The notes under the pieces: generated by a model
The model's database searches: none
Seen by the model: only the letters and a program-made list of their open reading frames with translations
Told to the model about the DNA's origin: nothing
In this document: piece by piece, positions 23,966 to 37,697 of the stretch
How the letters are laid out: the number at the start of each line of letters is the position of its first letter
Position numbering within the stretch: position 1 is the stretch's first letter
Assembly: GCA_016795485.1 (NCBI GenBank)
Contig: JAEUHM010000017.1
Coordinates: 1 to 64,000, forward strand
Reading direction: 5' to 3'
Source of the DNA: Verrucomicrobiaceae bacterium
GTDB taxonomy: Bacteria > Verrucomicrobiota > Verrucomicrobiia > Verrucomicrobiales > Verrucomicrobiaceae
Length of the DNA: 64,000 nt
Position numbers and translations under genes: made by a program

Positions 23966-24041
23966 GCACGGAAGGCTGTTTTCAAGACATCCGCGCGGAT
24001 TTCACACAAGAAGCCGCCCCGCCGTTGGCTGAAGGTTGCGC

Positions 24042-24902
24042 GTGCAGCCCTTACTTGTCATCGACTCCCACACTGGGGGAGAACCTACTCGCGTCATACC
24101 TGATGGATTGAGCCTTGCCGACTTGGAGAAGTGGCGGCGGGCGATCATTTGTGAGCCACGAGGTCATGAAGTCATCGTGGGAGCACTGCTCACACCACCA
24201 AAGCACGCCACGAGCGCTGCTGCGGTCACGTTCTTCAACAATGCAGGTCTTCTGGGTATGTGCGGCCATGGTATGATTGGCGTCATCGCCACGCTGCACC
24301 ATCTGGGGCGCATTCAGCCAGGAGTGCATGAGATTGAGACGCCAGCGGGCACCGTAGCGGCCACGCTTCACCCGGATTTACGTGTGAGCATCCGCAATGT
24401 CCTCTCTTGGAGGAAGGCCGCTGGGGTAAAAGCTGGTGGCGTGACGGGCGACATCGCCTACGGCGGGAACTGGTTCTTCTTGTGTGCTGATCATGGCCTA
24501 GCGCTGACCAAAGCTAACATTCGAGAGCTAACTGAAGCGAGTTTGGCGATCCGATCCGCCGTGCATGAGGCAGGTTTTCCAGAAGTCGATCACATCGAGC
24601 TTCTTGGACCGCCGGAGAACGCGGAGAACCACGGACGCAACTTTGTGCTCTGCCCCGGTGGCGAATATGATCGCTCACCGTGCGGCACGGGAACGAGCGC
24701 TAAGCTCGCCTGTCTCGCAGCCGACAAGAAACTAGCCCCTGGCGCTATCTGGCGGCAGGAAAGCATCATTGGCAGTGTGTTTGAAGGAAGCTATGAGAAC
24801 ACCGAGGATGGAATCATCCCCACCGTCACCGGACGAGCCTTCGTTACTGCTGAATCCACCCTGCACTTTCATCAGGACGACCCTTTCCAAAAGGGGCTGT
24901 GA
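24042..24902 (+). CDS. Proline racemase-family enzyme, probably 4-hydroxyproline 2-epimerase
   Basis: The family interconverts C2 stereoisomers of proline or hydroxyproline using two catalytic cysteines. Both are present: MCGHG (Cys74) and [10 protein letters not shown] near residue 220. This points to an epimerase rather than trans-3-hydroxy-L-proline dehydratase, which has Thr in place of the second Cys. The N-terminus [13 protein letters not shown] is also characteristic. GTG at 24042 is preferred because GAAGG lies 6 bases upstream; TTG at 24036 has no such spacing. With about 286 residues it is somewhat shorter than typical members (310-340). It follows thrH in the same direction, with the Ldh_2 enzyme divergent nearby. 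Confidence 0.85.
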
Positions 24903-30151: not shown

Positions 30152-31216
30152 TCAGCGGAACTCGTCCCTCAACCTTTGAGCAGCCTCGACTTCATTTTGC
30201 AGCTTATGGTAGGTCTCGTCTAAGCTCACAACAGCCCCAGAACCTGGAGCGAAACCACAGTCCGGATTTAAGGTTATGCGCCGAGGATCGAGAAACTGAG
30301 CCGCCTTGCGAACTCGCTCCACAATGGTTTCCGCTGAATCAATGCGCCCAGGTGTGACATCAACACAGCCCAAGCCGATCTCTAAATCTGGACGCAGTTC
30401 CTTAAAAACATCCATGTCGCCCGCCTGCGGTGAAGTAAACTCCATGGTCAGATGGTGTACATTGAGCGAGTTGAGATGATGAATGATGGGACCATAGCCA
30501 CCACCGTGGCTTACCTCGCCCCGCGCACGGCCGCCGGCACGTCGACAGAGATGGACCGCAAGTTTTACGCCCGTAATGCCACGCGTAAGCTCATTGAGCA
30601 TCTCGACTGCAAACGTGGCTGCATCTTCGGCGTCTGAGTATGTCGCACGCACAGCCGGATCGACAAATAGGCAAAGATGAGGGTCATCAATCTGGACGAT
30701 GTGAGCTCCTGCATCACGCACCAACTCCAACTCCCTCCGCAACACGGGAACACACTCGCGAATGAAGTCCCGGCGATCTGGATATGCCTTAGCGGACTTT
30801 ACAGGATCCCACATCCGCTCGCCCAACAACGCAGGAGAGGGCAAAGTAGATTTAATCACTCTGTTGGTGAGCGTTTTCAGAAACGTCACTTCCTGGGCGA
30901 TGAAACCGGGAGTCTTTGGGGACAGACGATCCACCACCGTCGTGTATGGCCTGCCATCTGGCGTGAGCCCTAGTTCAAAGCCATGCGCCAGTTCAGCGAT
31001 GACCCCAATGTAAGATCTCCGCCACCATTCGCCATCAGTGATCACGTCCAGCCCTGCATGTTCCTGCATAGCCACTGCATACCTAACGGCAGCTTGCATT
31101 TCTTGCTCATAGCGCGCCGCATCGATCGGCTGCCTACCATTGATGAGATCAAGCACGAAGGCGGGGCGTGGTAGTGAACCGACGACGGAAGTTGGAAAGA
31201 GTGTAGAAGCGCTCAT
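30152..31216 (-). CDS. MetE-like (cobalamin-independent methionine synthase II) methyltransferase
   Basis: This 354-residue protein corresponds to the C-terminal catalytic barrel of MetE. It begins TSVVGSLPRP like other members, with a plausible Zn site: His and Cys in VHLCRRAGG, Glu in LTMEFTSP, and Cys in LNPDCGF. The family includes enzymes acting on acceptors other than homocysteine. The standalone form and the operon context (transporter and nucleotidyltransferase upstream, 20-bp gap) suggest a specialised methyl transfer or thioether chemistry rather than bulk methionine synthesis. The start at 31216 (MSASTLFPT) is chosen over an upstream in-frame start that would overlap the preceding gene. 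Confidence 0.85.
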   Translation of the reverse strand: MSASTLFPTSVVGSLPRPAFVLDLINGRQPIDAARYEQEMQAAVRYAVAMQEHAGLDVITDGEWWRRSYIGVIAELAHGFELGLTPDGRPYTTVVDRLSPKTPGFIAQEVTFLKTLTNRVIKSTLPSPALLGERMWDPVKSAKAYPDRRDFIRECVPVLRRELELVRDAGAHIVQIDDPHLCLFVDPAVRATYSDAEDAATFAVEMLNELTRGITGVKLAVHLCRRAGGRARGEVSHGGGYGPIIHHLNSLNVHHLTMEFTSPQAGDMDVFKELRPDLEIGLGCVDVTPGRIDSAETIVERVRKAAQFLDPRRITLNPDCGFAPGSGAVVSLDETYHKLQNEVEAAQRLRDEFR

Positions 31217-31236
31217 GGTTCTGATAGTCGGTTGAT

Positions 31237-31989
31237 TCAATGGGTCCAATGCCTGCGAGCGAGATCAAAATCCTCTTGGGTATCCACCTCCATGTAGCTG
31301 GAGGCTGTGTCTGAATGCGCCATAGGCACACCGTGCTCGATCATCTCTTGAAGGAGCAAAATGAGGTAGGCCTTTTCAAAAACCTGAGCCTCACGCCACG
31401 GCTGACCCGCAAAACGCTCCCTCACGCGGTGAAAATGCTCCCTGAGCTGTGCAGCACCCGCTGGCGTAAACTTGGCAATACCGGTGAACTCTCCATATGC
31501 ATCTTCCGGCGTGATCCCGCGATGAACTTGCTTCACCAAACCATTTTCCGTCATGACTTTCTCAGCATCATCGGGCGGATGCTGACTGCGGTGCTGATAG
31601 CGATCCAGCCAATTGGTATCCACACTCAAGGCGATGTCCGCAGGATGATGCAGTACCCCTGAGACGACTTCTGGAGTGAAAAGAATGTCAGAGTAAGCAC
31701 ACACGAACCCGTCATTCATGACGTCCTCCGCATGCATGAGGGAAAGTAGGATGTTGTTGTCTTCCCATCCTGTATTGTGCCTGAAGGTGAAGGCTGGATA
31801 ATCCGCGCGAACGCGGTCAATCAAGTACCCACCGATGAAGCAAATGTCAGAAAGCCCGGCTTGGGTGAAGGATTTCACCGCGCGGTCCAACAAACGTTCA
31901 CCCTGGACTTCTGCATAGCACTTGGGTGCAGTTGCTGTGGTTGGCATGAGGCGGCGGCCACGGCCGGCACCGATGATAATGGCTTTCAT
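31237..31989 (-). CDS. LicC/PntC-like nucleotidyltransferase
   Basis: This protein of about 250 residues has the sugar-nucleotidyltransferase N-terminus MKAIIIGAGRGRRLMPTTATAPKC. The motif NTGWEDNNILLSLMHAEDVM resembles the acceptor region of choline-phosphate (LicC) and aminoethylphosphonate (PntC) cytidylyltransferases. 'AYSDILFTPEVV' carries the metal-binding Asp. The C-terminal helix EVDTQEDFDLARR is also typical. It would activate a phosphorylated or phosphonate head group as a CDP derivative. The ATG overlaps the transporter stop (ATGA), so the two are coupled. The true substrate cannot be read from sequence. Confidence 0.82.
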   Translation of the reverse strand: MKAIIIGAGRGRRLMPTTATAPKCYAEVQGERLLDRAVKSFTQAGLSDICFIGGYLIDRVRADYPAFTFRHNTGWEDNNILLSLMHAEDVMNDGFVCAYSDILFTPEVVSGVLHHPADIALSVDTNWLDRYQHRSQHPPDDAEKVMTENGLVKQVHRGITPEDAYGEFTGIAKFTPAGAAQLREHFHRVRERFAGQPWREAQVFEKAYLILLLQEMIEHGVPMAHSDTASSYMEVDTQEDFDLARRHWTH

Positions 31990-33248
31990 GAAGTTGAGTT
32001 CGATTTGTTCCAAAGAAACGAGATGAAGATGGCCCCTGCAAATGCGCAACAGGCCCAAAAACGCACCGCCACCGGCCATCCATGGCGTTCAGCGAGCGTG
32101 CCGGTCATCCAGTCACCGCCCGCAGCTCCCATGTAGCCCATGAAGTTCACAAACCCGGCTGCTGCTGCCGCAGTTCCTTGTCGCGCTAGATCAACGGGCA
32201 AAGTTCCCACCAGCAACACCTGGCTGCCAAAGATGCAAAAGCCCACAGCAAATAGCAGAGACACCGAAACAAGTGGCCCCCAGTGAATGACTGTATCATA
32301 AGCAAGGGTCAGACAGCCTAGCAATGCCATGAGGATCACCACCATCGGAGCGCGGCGGCCAGCAAAAAAGCGATCCGTCATCCATCCACTGACCAAAGCA
32401 CCTGCGATACCACCAAAGGGCAATACAGCATACTTGAGTGCTGCCGAACCGACAGAGACCTTCTGGATTTCCTTCAAATGAGTGACTCCCCAGTCACTGA
32501 ATCCATAGCGGCAGGCATCAAGCACACAAAGAGTGACCGCTACCACCCATAAGGCCGGTGTCGTCAGCGTCATCCGCACCGTTGTGCCCAACGATAGAGC
32601 TGCTGCACTGCCTTTTGCCCGCGCTTCACGAGCACTCTCAGGAGCATCCTTGAGAAAGAGCAACATGTGCACGGAGCTGAGAGTCAAAATAATGGCGGGG
32701 ATCCAGAGGGCAGCCCGCCAGCCATAGCTTTCTGCCGCCCAACCCGAGACTAAGTACGTCAGCCCACCACAAAGTTGGTAACCCGTCCCAATGATGCCGA
32801 TGGCGCGCCCTCGATGAAGCGCATCAAACCAAGACGAAGCCACCTTCATGCAGGGCGTCCACCCCAGAGCCTGTGCATAGCCATTAACTGCCCACACAAA
32901 GATGAAGAACCACAGCCCCTCCACCCACCCAAACAACACGTTGAGTAATGCAGAGGCCATCATCCCGGTGGCGATTAGCTTTGTGGGCGAAAGTCGCTCG
33001 GCTAGTTGCCCATTGATGACCTGGCCCAAGCCGTAAGCCAGCTTCAACCCCATCAGCACCGCACCCATCTCCATTTTGGAGTGGCCAAACTCTGCCATAA
33101 TGCCTGGAACAGCCACACCAAGGTTGTTGCGGCAAAAGTAGAAGCTCCCGTAAGTCAGCCAAAGCACCCAAACCACCAACTTTTGGTCGGGAGTAAACTC
33201 CCGGGGTTTGGTTATTGGATTTTGGCTCTGCACGCGGAACGATCTCAA
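31986..33248 (-). CDS. MFS transporter, organophosphate:phosphate antiporter (GlpT/UhpT) type
   Basis: This 420-residue protein has about 12 predicted membrane segments. The first cytoplasmic and TM region (YGSFYFCRNNLGVAVPGIMAEFG) carries the Arg-Asn typical of the OPA family, which imports glycerol-3-phosphate, hexose phosphates, phosphoglycerates or phosphonates in exchange for phosphate. The segments GYAQALGWTPCMKVASSWF and GRAIGIIGTGYQLCGGLTYLVSGW also match this family. It is the first gene of a minus-strand operon with the nucleotidyltransferase (4-bp overlap) and the MetE-like enzyme, and is divergent from the SAF dehydrogenase. The neighbours suggest an organophosphate or phosphonate substrate. 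Confidence 0.88.
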   Translation of the reverse strand: MRSFRVQSQNPITKPREFTPDQKLVVWVLWLTYGSFYFCRNNLGVAVPGIMAEFGHSKMEMGAVLMGLKLAYGLGQVINGQLAERLSPTKLIATGMMASALLNVLFGWVEGLWFFIFVWAVNGYAQALGWTPCMKVASSWFDALHRGRAIGIIGTGYQLCGGLTYLVSGWAAESYGWRAALWIPAIILTLSSVHMLLFLKDAPESAREARAKGSAAALSLGTTVRMTLTTPALWVVAVTLCVLDACRYGFSDWGVTHLKEIQKVSVGSAALKYAVLPFGGIAGALVSGWMTDRFFAGRRAPMVVILMALLGCLTLAYDTVIHWGPLVSVSLLFAVGFCIFGSQVLLVGTLPVDLARQGTAAAAAGFVNFMGYMGAAGGDWMTGTLAERHGWPVAVRFWACCAFAGAIFISFLWNKSNSTS

Positions 33249-33435
33249 CGGAACGAGCCAGTCTGGTCAATCGTTTTGCGTGGGCAGAAAACCTGAAACT
33301 ACCAGAAATTTAATTTTCCTTAACTTTCTCATTGCTAAGGATAAGGGATTGACCTTATAGTGTAATAACGCTAGCGGGGAGCAGTTGTCCGGGCTATTCC
33401 GGATACTGACGCCAGTGACCAGCATATTTACCAAC

Positions 33436-34659
33436 ATGTGGAATAAACCTGATTTGCCCAAGATTCGGCTTGGAATCATAGGCACTGGATTCATCGCCCG
33501 CGGCCTTGCTGGAGTGGTCAGACGGACCAAAGACTTCGAGGTGGGAGCTGTGTTGACCCGCCGACCATCCTTTGAGATTTCCGGTTTCTCCGCAGACGAA
33601 CTGGTCGACTCCGTTGCAGAACTGCTGGAGCGCTCAGACATGATCGTTGAGTGTTCTGGGGACACTCTGCACGCTACAGACGTGATTAACGAAGCGGTGA
33701 AGGCCGAGATGCCTGTGGTGACCATGAACTCCGAATGGCACGTCACCGTTGGCAGCTACTTCAAGGGCAAAGGAATCATCACTGAAGCAGAGGGAGACCA
33801 AGGCGGATGCCTAGCCGCACTTCACCAGGAAGCGATGCTCATGGGCTTCAAGCCGCTCGCGTATGTCAACGTGAAGGGCTACCTCAACACCAATCCGCGG
33901 CGAGAAGACATGGAGTTTTACTCCCGCAAACAGGGCATTTCCTTGGATCAGGTCACTTCCTTCACCGACGGCTCCAAGGTCCAGATTGAGCAGGCTCACA
34001 TTGCCAACGGCCTTGGACTTGGGATTGTCCGCCCGGGACTGCTCGGTTGCGCGGTTGAAGACGTCCGCAAAGGCGCCGAGATCCTTGGATGCGCTGCGGA
34101 AGAGCTCGGCTATCCCGTGGCTGACTACATCTTGACCAAAGATGCACCCGGTGCCGTCTATATTGTGGCTAGACATGACGACGAGCAGGCCGCTTCCCTC
34201 AACTACATGAAGATGGGTGAGGGTCCCTACTACGTGGTGAAGAAGCCTTATCACCTCTGCCATCTGGAGATGATCAAGACGCTCAAGGATCTTGCCAACA
34301 CCGGATCGGTCCTGTTGGACAACGGCGACCTGCCAACCATCAGCGTGGCAGCCATTGCCAAGCGCTCACTTCAGCCCGGCACCTCCATTCCCCGAGGAAT
34401 GGGTAGTTTCGATGTCCGTGGCGAGTGCGTGAGAATCGCCGAGACAGCTGGTTACCTCCCTATCGGCCTCATGCAACACGCCGTGATCAAGCGCCCAGTG
34501 GCAGCAGGCGACTACCTTACCATGGCGGATGTGGATCTTCCAGATTCCCTTGCGCTTCGTGCTTGGCTGGACACTGAGCGCCGCGTGCTCGCCGCAGCGG
34601 ATGAAGAACCAGAGGCTAAGCGTGGGATGCCGAGCGCCAGGCTCGCCAGCATTCAATAA
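33436..34659 (+). CDS. NAD(P)-dependent dehydrogenase with C-terminal SAF domain
   Basis: From the ATG at 33436 this protein has about 407 residues. A Rossmann fold starts at IRLGIIGTGFIARGLAG, followed by 'SDMIVECSGDTLHATDVINEAVKAEMPVVTMNSEWH', as in homoserine dehydrogenase/Gfo-Idh-like oxidoreductases. The C-terminal segment AVIKRPVAAGDYLTMADVDLPDS is a SAF domain, as found in NeuB and altronate dehydratase. It is divergent from the transporter operon and probably shares its control region. The physiological substrate is unknown. Its 3' end overlaps the 3' end of the rsmA-Nudix gene by 44 bp. Confidence 0.85.
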   Translation: MWNKPDLPKIRLGIIGTGFIARGLAGVVRRTKDFEVGAVLTRRPSFEISGFSADELVDSVAELLERSDMIVECSGDTLHATDVINEAVKAEMPVVTMNSEWHVTVGSYFKGKGIITEAEGDQGGCLAALHQEAMLMGFKPLAYVNVKGYLNTNPRREDMEFYSRKQGISLDQVTSFTDGSKVQIEQAHIANGLGLGIVRPGLLGCAVEDVRKGAEILGCAAEELGYPVADYILTKDAPGAVYIVARHDDEQAASLNYMKMGEGPYYVVKKPYHLCHLEMIKTLKDLANTGSVLLDNGDLPTISVAAIAKRSLQPGTSIPRGMGSFDVRGECVRIAETAGYLPIGLMQHAVIKRPVAAGDYLTMADVDLPDSLALRAWLDTERRVLAAADEEPEAKRGMPSARLASIQ

Positions 34660-35929
34660 ACCCGCTGGCAAAGTCCTCCGGGCGAGCATCCACCCACTCG
34701 TCGACCACCGGCGGTGGAAACCACGTTCCGCAGTCAATTTCATCGGGAGCGTAGTGCACTGGCCCATCGTGCCGAGCCAAATGTAGCTCCACGAACTCCA
34801 TTCCCGTGCGCTCCGTGGCTGGGATATCCGCAAGCTTCTCGGTCTCAGGCACGCGGATGCCAATCTCCTCTTCAAGTTCACGGATGGCACACGTCGCGTA
34901 AGACTCGCCGACGTCCAAATGCCCTGCTGCTGAGCTATCCCAAACAAGTGGGTGCACGTCTTTGAGGTGGCTGCGTTTTTGCAAATAGATGTCTCCACGC
35001 TTATTGAGCACAAAAATGTGCACAGCGCGGTGTCTTAATCCCTCGGCATGGACTTTCCCGCGAGGCTGCTGACCTATCACCCGGTTGTTTTCATCGACCA
35101 CGTCAAACATCTCCGTCGCCTTTTGCCCAGCGTCCGACTTGTTCTGCCTACCCTCGTAGAATCGCGTGAGTTCCACCCACTGCTGGAGGGATAACTCCTC
35201 GGCTCGGATCGTCAAAGGGACTCCAAGATGGTTCACGAGCGCTTCCCATCCATCAGGAGCATCAGGGAGCAGATTTTTGAGCTGTTTCCGCCGCTGGCTA
35301 AAACCTTGTCTCACTAACCGATCAAACAACGGCCTGTCGTAAACTGGCAGCGATCCTGGCTCGCGCGGAGTGAACTTTACCACTGCTGAGTCAACCTTCG
35401 GACGTGGCTTGAAGACATCCGGCGGCACGATCCGCAGCAGCTTTACATCCCAATGCTGTTGCACGAGCAAACTGAGCCCCCCGTAACCATCATCGCCAAC
35501 ATTAGCGGCCAGACGATCACACACCTCCTTCTGGAGCATGAACACGGCATGGCGAATGGGAGTTGCCGGCGTCAGAACTGCCTTCAGCACTTCACCACCC
35601 ACGGAGTACGGTAGGTTACCAATGATCCGCACATCGCCGAAGCGATAGAATGGCCGCAAATCTAGGCGCGTTGCATCGGCATGCATGACTCTCACACGCG
35701 AGTTGTTGGAGAATCGCTCCACCAATGCCGGCGCAAGCTCATTGTCCTTCTCCACAAGCACAAGATTCTCGCACCGATCCGCCAGATGTGCCGTTAGCGC
35801 TCCTTGACCGGGACCAATTTCGATCACACATGCAGCCGTCTGCGGCTCGATTTGATCCGCGATCCAGCGGGACAGATTCACATCCGTCAGGAAGTTCTGA
35901 CCCAGAGATTTTTTTGGCTGAAAAGACAT
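34616..35929 (-). CDS. rsmA: 16S rRNA dimethyladenosine transferase RsmA fused to a Nudix hydrolase
   Basis: The N-terminal roughly 270 residues are a complete RsmA/KsgA: QPKKSLGQNFLTD, the SAM-binding VIEIGPGQGALT, the catalytic IGNLPYSV, and PRPKVDSAVVKF near the C-terminal lobe. This enzyme dimethylates the two adjacent adenosines in the 3' hairpin of 16S rRNA. After a short linker (NKSDAGQKATEMFDVVDENNRVIG) comes a Nudix domain with the box GHLDVGESYATCAIRELEEEIGI, close to the GX5EX7REUXEEXGU consensus, of the isopentenyl-diphosphate isomerase/YfcD-like type. The frame is continuous through the junction. The start at 35929 (MSFQPKKS) is the family start. It lies 16 bp downstream of argS, likely in one operon. 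Confidence 0.92.
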   Translation of the reverse strand: MSFQPKKSLGQNFLTDVNLSRWIADQIEPQTAACVIEIGPGQGALTAHLADRCENLVLVEKDNELAPALVERFSNNSRVRVMHADATRLDLRPFYRFGDVRIIGNLPYSVGGEVLKAVLTPATPIRHAVFMLQKEVCDRLAANVGDDGYGGLSLLVQQHWDVKLLRIVPPDVFKPRPKVDSAVVKFTPREPGSLPVYDRPLFDRLVRQGFSQRRKQLKNLLPDAPDGWEALVNHLGVPLTIRAEELSLQQWVELTRFYEGRQNKSDAGQKATEMFDVVDENNRVIGQQPRGKVHAEGLRHRAVHIFVLNKRGDIYLQKRSHLKDVHPLVWDSSAAGHLDVGESYATCAIRELEEEIGIRVPETEKLADIPATERTGMEFVELHLARHDGPVHYAPDEIDCGTWFPPPVVDEWVDARPEDFASGFIECWRAWRSASHA

Positions 35930-35945
35930 GGTAGGCCTCCAGCGC

Positions 35946-37697
35946 TCACATCCGCTCCGTTGTGCGGATGCCCAACAATCCAAGACCAGCCTTCAAGACC
36001 TTCCCGGTTGCCTCGCACAACAAAAGACGCGTGTTGCGCACGGTCCCGGTGCTATTCAGCACGTGGCACGCCTCATAGAAGCTGTGGTAGGTGTTGGCCA
36101 ACTCGTAGAGGTAAGCCGCCAGCAAGTTCGGCTTGTGATCCACCAAGACGTCATGCGCTGTTTCGGCAAACTGGGCCAACTTAATCGCCAACGCCTTCTC
36201 TGCTGCCTCTGTCAGCTCGCAGTCGCCCGTTAGCTGCACATTACCATCCAGCTTCCTGAAGATGGCTCGTGTCCGGACATAAGCGTTGATCAAATACGGA
36301 GCCGTATTGCCTTGAAGCGAAAGCATCTTCTCCCAACTGAACTTATAGTCAGTCAGGCGGTTTTGGCTGAGCTCCGCGTATTTCACAGCGCCTCCACCAA
36401 TGGTGCGCGCGATTTCATCCCTCTGCGCATCATCCGGGGCACTCTCCTTCTCGTCCACCGCAGCACGCGCACGCTCCACGGCTTCTTCGATGACCTCCAG
36501 CAGACCCACGGTCTCACCGCTCCGAGTTTTGAACATCTTCCCATCTGGTCCCAGAATGCTTCCGAATGCGATGTGGGTGAACTCCGTGGAGTAACCCATG
36601 CGGCGGGCAGCGGCAAACACCTGCTTGAAATGCAACTGCTGCGGTGAGCCCACCACATACCACACTTCATCCGCCTTCCACTCCTTGACCCGATACTCGA
36701 TGGTCGCCAAATCCGTCGTGGCGTATAGAAAACCGCCATCGGACTTGCGAATGATCGCGGGCGTTGGCTTCCACTGGTCACCCTCCCGGATCAAGAACGG
36801 ATCATCCTCGGGCTTGGATGCACCATCGCTGAAGATCACCACGGCTCCGTCACTCTCCGTGGCGATGCCATCCTTCAGCAAGCGCTCCACCAGCGGCCCC
36901 AAGGCGTCGTTGTAGAAGCTCTCGCCCAGATAGTGATCAAACTGAATGTCCAGCGTGCCATACACCTTCTCCAACTGCTCCAGCGTCAGCCGCACACACT
37001 CTTGCCAGATCGCCGTGTTGTCCGCGTCTCCCTGTTGGAGCTTTACCAGTTCGCCCTTGCAGATCTCCAGCACAGCCGGGTCTGCTTTGGTAGCAGCATT
37101 CACTTCTTTGTAGACACGCACCAGCTCATGAATGGCATCCTGTTTCAGCGCTTCCTGATTCAGCAGCGTCTTCCAGCCGTGGATGATCATTCCGAACTGC
37201 GTACCCCAGTCGCCCACGTGGTTGTCAGTGATCACTTTGTGCCCCACAAACTTCGCCACCCGCGCAAGGCAGTCGCCAATGAAAGTGCTTCGGATATGAC
37301 CCACGTGCATTGGCTTGGCGATGTTCGGCGCGCTGAAGTCCACCACAATCGTCCGTGGCTTGTCCACCGCAGGCACCCCACAGTTATCATCAGCCAAAAT
37401 GGTCTTCACCTTACCTGCGAGAGCCTCAGGCGAGATACGGAAGTTCAGGAAGCCCGGCCCAGCAATGCTCACCTCACTGCACAGATCATCCGCTGCAAAC
37501 GCCCCCTTCACCTGCTCCGCCAGGGCGCGCGGATTCATCTTCATCTGTTTGGCCAGCACCATGGCAGAGTTGCTCTGGTAATCGCCAAAACGCGTATCCG
37601 AGGCCAGTGACACGTCGATACTGAAGCCCTCAGGCAAAGAAACGCCCGCCGCAGCAAAGGCGGCAGTGAGATGATGATGCAATTGTGCGCGGAACAT
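35946..37697 (-). CDS. argS: Arginyl-tRNA synthetase
   Basis: This class I aminoacyl-tRNA synthetase charges tRNA-Arg. It has 583 residues with an N-terminal additional domain (DTRFGDYQSNSAMVLAK), the HIGH-type motif in PNIAKPMHVGHIRSTFIGD near residue 130, the 'FETRSG'-equivalent MFKTRSGETVGLLEVI, and a C-terminal anticodon-binding helical domain (YLYELANTYHSFYEACHV, ending GIRTTERM). It is followed closely by rsmA-Nudix on the same strand, so the two translation genes are probably co-transcribed. Confidence 0.97.
   Translation of the reverse strand: MFRAQLHHHLTAAFAAAGVSLPEGFSIDVSLASDTRFGDYQSNSAMVLAKQMKMNPRALAEQVKGAFAADDLCSEVSIAGPGFLNFRISPEALAGKVKTILADDNCGVPAVDKPRTIVVDFSAPNIAKPMHVGHIRSTFIGDCLARVAKFVGHKVITDNHVGDWGTQFGMIIHGWKTLLNQEALKQDAIHELVRVYKEVNAATKADPAVLEICKGELVKLQQGDADNTAIWQECVRLTLEQLEKVYGTLDIQFDHYLGESFYNDALGPLVERLLKDGIATESDGAVVIFSDGASKPEDDPFLIREGDQWKPTPAIIRKSDGGFLYATTDLATIEYRVKEWKADEVWYVVGSPQQLHFKQVFAAARRMGYSTEFTHIAFGSILGPDGKMFKTRSGETVGLLEVIEEAVERARAAVDEKESAPDDAQRDEIARTIGGGAVKYAELSQNRLTDYKFSWEKMLSLQGNTAPYLINAYVRTRAIFRKLDGNVQLTGDCELTEAAEKALAIKLAQFAETAHDVLVDHKPNLLAAYLYELANTYHSFYEACHVLNSTGTVRNTRLLLCEATGKVLKAGLGLLGIRTTERM

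Follow-up and report, generated by a model that had tools for sequence, protein, structure and literature searches.

For cytidylyltransferases of the COG1213 type, the known substrates include phosphocholine, phosphoglutamine and phosphoglycerate (PMC12275187); one further relative, CD0242, has been proposed to use phosphothreonine (PMC10714395). PntC of T. denticola (6PD1/6PD2) and LicC of S. pneumoniae (1JYK/1JYL) share one fold, a GxGxR...PK signature and C-terminal ExD metal residues; in PntC, E104 contacts AEP, and D105 of LicC is the structurally equivalent acidic amine contact (PMC6697681). CpgD of Caulobacter is a CTP-dependent COG1213 phosphoglycerate cytidylyltransferase with a carboxylate organophosphate substrate, and enzymes of the Cj1416 type are phosphoglutamine cytidylyltransferases. 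Among methionine synthases, the core enzymes MesA-MesD have no folate N-domain and use zinc- and homocysteine-binding residues whose roles have been described (PMC7857596). Finally, the organophosphate transporters GlpT, PgtP and SLC37A4 combine the MFS fold with a pair of phosphate Arg residues. At the locus analysed here, relatives of all three groups are encoded side by side; we found no described pathway in the literature that pairs these genes.

The window, that is, the whole stretch of 64,000 nt that was analysed, comprises positions 1 to 64,000 of the forward strand of contig JAEUHM010000017.1 from a Verrucomicrobiaceae bacterium (GCA_016795485.1). Three minus-strand genes constitute the operon. 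The first encodes an OPA-type MFS transporter (31986..33248; TIGR00881, E 1e-67, and PF07690), with a start codon that lies somewhere from 33248 to about 33180; the second a COG1213-type cytidylyltransferase of 250 aa (31237..31989; NTP_transf_3), hereafter NT; and the third a standalone MetE-like zinc enzyme of the core methionine synthase type with 354 aa (30152..31216; Meth_synt_2, PF01717, E 3.5e-29). The OPA stop overlaps the NT start in an ATGA at 31986-31989, and 20 bp lie between the NT stop (31237) and the MetE ATG (31216). A divergent dehydrogenase gene adjoins the operon and is not conserved with it. For all four genes, the ORFs and the Pfam/NCBIfam assignments reproduce the coordinates, overlap, gap and families given in the preliminary description. 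Given that dN/dS between orthologs of the trio genes ranges from 0.03 to 0.13, indicating strong purifying selection, these are not chance ORFs. An Rfam search recovered no riboswitch in the window, the only match being an unrelated nhaA-I at another locus (L018).

A scan of species-representative genomes yielded 18 further NT loci at 59-79% identity, all of them from metagenome-assembled genomes and most labelled Verrucomicrobiota. Whole-genome searches added 8 genomes with adjacent NT and MetE, a count that leaves out G882 (which repeats locus L026) and G797 (NT and MetE unlinked). Including the window, NT and MetE are therefore adjacent, with order and strand kept, in 26 genomes, and OPA lies upstream of the pair in 17 of these, counting one locus with opposite-strand genes in between (L016) and one in which OPA is split into two frames (L024). 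The remaining 9 loci carry NT-MetE with no OPA nearby, and a genome search at E 1e-40 recovered no OPA ortholog in 4 genomes that have the pair; import is thus not obligatory, and NT-MetE can be regarded as the core to which OPA is a frequent addition. At L013, OPA and NT are followed by an apparent transposase where MetE would be. The module is scarce, being present in 5 of 387 genomes across the phylum (about 1-2%); 8 of 384 genomes matched in a sample of the class, one of the 8 through a 41% paralog (G648), and a close NT occurs in only one of 56 relatives.

The preliminary description had proposed to look for conserved synteny across Verrucomicrobiota, and such synteny exists for the trio, with variable flanks. 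Because the flanking genes differ at nearly every trio locus, conservation of the trio is selective and does not reflect general synteny. Clustering of the flanking ORFs returned no conserved fourth gene, recurrence being limited to related-genome pairs and to families in at most 4 loci, and transferase, kinase and glycan genes are not among the recurrent neighbours of the module. Among neighbours found at single loci are a Gfo/Idh protein with an ADH (L062) and a URO-D protein (L027). Directly after NT-MetE at L065 (2160-5783), a protein composed of DinB_2, FGE-sulfatase and methyltransferase domains (OvoA-like) and a PLP enzyme resemble an ovothiol operon, and at L018 (5188-6938) the trio is followed by an IF-2B/MtnA-type isomerase and a class II aldolase in an arrangement resembling methylthioadenosine salvage; each was seen once.

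The strongest sign that the trio works together, rather than merely being neighbours, is co-occurrence in the absence of linkage: in G797, all three orthologs (64-65%) are present on separate contigs (C117, C139 and C52), and while this assembly is fragmented, the OPA and NT contigs have other genes around them. Pairwise protein distances of OPA, NT and MetE also correlate (Mantel r 0.89-0.96), which fits co-inheritance, although species relatedness contributes to these values as well. The linkage is well supported, and the three genes form a conserved module that is apparently self-contained and horizontally scattered. Given that the trio travels together across many otherwise unrelated Verrucomicrobiota, it probably encodes a small uncharacterised pathway.

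The AlphaFold2 model of NT (pLDDT 93.5) was matched by VIA-align to PntC first (Z 27.3) and LicC second (Z 25.8), a small lead over GlmU and RmlA-type enzymes, which scored at Z about 25 or below. K23, D101, E234 and D236 are invariant in 24 orthologs. Judged by modelled fold and by its catalytic residues (GxGxR, PK, Asp and the C-terminal ExD), NT is predicted to be a LicC/PntC-type cytidylyltransferase of COG1213, and the earlier assignment to this type, rather than to sugar-1-phosphate enzymes, agrees with the ranking. Identification as IspD, which the DXR-like neighbour might suggest, was rejected, as the PF01128 match is weak and below the cut-off, and the genome encodes a canonical DXR. 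Identity to PntC and LicC amounts to 15-18%, there are no lic or ppm genes nearby, and the residue aligned with PntC E104 is Tyr99 in all 24 orthologs. Since an invariant Tyr occupies the position of the amine-contacting acidic residue, a specificity like that of PntC or LicC is not supported.

There is a second difference from PntC. NT residues 124-143 contain a 12-residue insert, marked by W-x(6)-R-x(3)-P-x(2)-D-x-E, which is common to four of four glutamine-kinase-linked NTs examined (one with F for P) and is absent from PntC, from inositol-phosphate cytidylyltransferase, and from a Rhizobium NT encoded near PEP mutase together with its close relative. The four NTs are encoded in plasmid operons beside PEP-utilising (glutamine-kinase-like) enzymes, in three cases also with an annotated gamma-glutamyl hydrolase, and from this context we infer that they are Cj1416-type phosphoglutamine cytidylyltransferases, for which the insert might be diagnostic. 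They are 27-31% identical to NT over the whole length and share its YxD motif. However, neither a PEP-utilising glutamine kinase nor a gamma-glutamyl-CDP-amidate hydrolase was recognised at the trio loci examined, and the tree, in which the trio NTs form one clade (100/99), does not settle whether the Cj1416 type is its sister group. CpgD can be likened to NT by family and description, but ceramide pathway genes were not recognised at trio loci. Because NT combines the glutamine-kinase-type insert with a Tyr at the acidic amine contact, the phosphate compound that it binds is more likely to resemble an amino acid or a carboxylate than choline or AEP. On contig C116 of G797 (L105), a different COG1213-like NT (25% identical) is encoded together with a TPP enzyme, a probable methyltransferase and what looks like the terminal part of a PEP-utilising enzyme; this Verrucomicrobiota genome might hold a phosphoramidate-type cluster.

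In GlpT, an Arg pair in helices 1 and 7 binds phosphate. The equivalents of these residues, R45 and R269, are R20 and R227 in the transporter (translation from 33188) and are invariant in 16 orthologs, which argues for membership in the OPA family. K80, H165 and N166 of GlpT are replaced by Q56, Y137 and Q138, again invariant in the 16 orthologs. The GlpT model scores 174 bits against 632 required, and the protein falls below every curated cut-off for GlpT, PgtP and UhpC/UhpT, in line with the previous view of an OPA-type protein distinct from plain GlpT. The genome encodes a second OPA-type protein (30% identical) on contig C49, adjoining an apparent glycerol-phosphate dehydrogenase gene.

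The model of the MetE-like enzyme (pLDDT 87.1) has its best fold match in MesD (3rpd, Z 36.5), followed by MetE of T. maritima (Z 34.7). As in the Mes enzymes, the folate N-domain is missing, and the zinc ligands H223/C225/E260/C321 as well as the homocysteine residues S15/E64/D178 are invariant in 24 sequences. Trp137, likewise invariant, aligns with W539 of T. maritima MetE, which presumably stacks on the pterin, and has no counterpart in the aligned MesD and Listeria structures. Unlike MesD, to which it is about 25% identical, the protein is tied to an NT, and neither MesX (DUF1852) nor a corrinoid gene was recognised among the annotated neighbours of the module loci. It scores below the cut-off of every NCBIfam model for methionine synthases, and, with MetH encoded in the genome, ordinary methionine synthesis does not depend on it. 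Taken together, the modelled fold, the zinc and homocysteine residues, Trp137 and the presence of MetH point to homocysteine as the thiol substrate. MetE-like paralogs of about 40% identity at L066 (1174-2238) and L078 (6478-7596) have no adjacent NT and probably belong to a related family with another role.

It is likely that the three genes serve one pathway, the chemistry of which we infer from the properties of its members. Our tentative preference is for a route in which an organophosphate is imported, activated with CDP and linked to the S-alkylation of homocysteine. In such a pathway, the OPA transporter would exchange an organophosphate, as its conserved Arg pair suggests, and NT, if it behaves like its family, would use CTP to convert this compound to a CDP-linked derivative and pyrophosphate. 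The MetE-like zinc enzyme would activate the homocysteine thiol and subsequently alkylate it, and the electrophile might be the CDP-activated compound itself, with CDP leaving, or alternatively a methyl donor supporting modification of that compound. TagF-type transferases (PF04464) are absent from 24 genomes searched, 11 of which have the module or its NT-MetE core, so that no enzyme of this type offers itself as an outside user of the CDP compound. In its most explicit and, to our minds, quite improbable form, cytidylylation would make the phosphate or phosphonate a leaving group (R-O-P + CTP -> R-O-CDP), and the zinc-thiolate of homocysteine would displace CDP to give S-alkyl-homocysteine; speculatively, the product would be methionine if R is methyl. 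We know of no precedent for CDP as a leaving group for a zinc-thiolate, and this reaction, if true, would represent a new use of organophosphates as alkyl donors. More generally, provided that the linkage holds, the module joins a zinc enzyme that alkylates homocysteine to a producer of CDP derivatives whose family is known to use several small molecules as substrates. This would imply a CDP-linked metabolite that is new and, perhaps, a previously unrecognised fate of environmental organophosphates in Verrucomicrobiota. With only three genes in the module, purified proteins would suffice for a direct test.

The same genes could instead contribute to surface tailoring of the Lic/Pnt type, with an imported or endogenous phospho-head group activated as its CDP derivative, a transferase encoded elsewhere passing it to a lipid or glycan, and MetE providing methionine for SAM-dependent methylation. 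LicC and PntC are indeed the closest solved relatives of NT by fold, and the COG1213 relatives CpgD (CDP-glycerate; PMC12275187) and CD0242 (proposed CDP-threonine; PMC10714395) both serve surface molecules. We nevertheless consider this doubtful, as the loci share no recurrent transferase, kinase or glycan gene, PF04464 is missing as described above, and a dedicated MetE would be superfluous where MetH exists. Another possibility is that the MetE-like protein adds a fifth kind to the core methionine synthases, and that OPA and NT act in a different process, so that the cassette moves jointly without forming one pathway. Retention of all zinc and homocysteine residues, and of a Trp at the presumed pterin-stacking position of T. 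maritima MetE, would be in keeping with such an enzyme. However, the examined genomes with a MetE ortholog of at least 63% also have NT, even when the two are unlinked as in G797, whereas the homologs at L066 and L078, which have no NT beside them, are more distant (about 40%) and do not belong to this group, and we therefore rate the proposal as unlikely.

The preliminary description also entertained phosphonates, and a pathway in which OPA imports a phosphonate and NT produces a CMP-phosphonate would accord with PntC as the top fold match and with the occurrence of a COG1213 NT near PEP mutase on a Rhizobium plasmid. Because PEP mutase was not found in the genome, endogenous phosphonate synthesis is not supported; in addition, the PEP-mutase-linked Rhizobium NT is devoid of the insert, and the PntC E104 position is taken by Tyr99. 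The evidence from the module neither demands nor contradicts a phosphonate route, and we judge this pathway to be quite unlikely; uptake of an external phosphonate would be compatible with the evidence.

The divergent gene (33385 or 33437 to 34659, plus strand) encodes a Rossmann dehydrogenase (NAD_binding_3) that its catalytic domain (DRL_cat, PF21135, E 2.8e-29) identifies as a DRL (DXR-like) protein. Its best solved relatives are 3upl/3upy, which we take to be the Brucella DXR-like enzyme. The Rossmann part of the earlier annotation holds, and the C-terminal SAF domain is reduced to a PF08666 match below the cut-off (E 0.022). The DRL family has been described previously (PMC3424233). Of the 37 relatives searched, many have a DRL ortholog (43-52%, about 48%), and nearly all of these lack the trio, while no DRL is found at other trio loci; the proposed four-gene locus thus contracts to the trio. 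The idea that DRL is a fourth member acting on the imported compound draws on the intergenic region it has in common with the operon and on Gfo/Idh-type dehydrogenases preceding NT at L029, L062 and probably L064, yet it is most improbable given that the latter belong to a different family, that the distribution of orthologs runs against it, and that G041 carries DRL and the trio on different contigs. Nor is the protein needed for isoprenoid synthesis, as the canonical DXR is an intact ORF of 407 aa. In three relatives (L050, L052 and L054), the DRL ortholog adjoins a family 2 glycosyltransferase, possibly reflecting a role of DRL in surface sugars. Two further genes of the window may be mentioned: next to the locus, a single ORF (34616-35983, minus strand) appears to fuse the rRNA adenine dimethylase KsgA (22-275) to a NUDIX domain (317-427), and about 5 kb away lies a gene resembling proline racemase / 4-hydroxyproline epimerase (24036-24902, plus strand).
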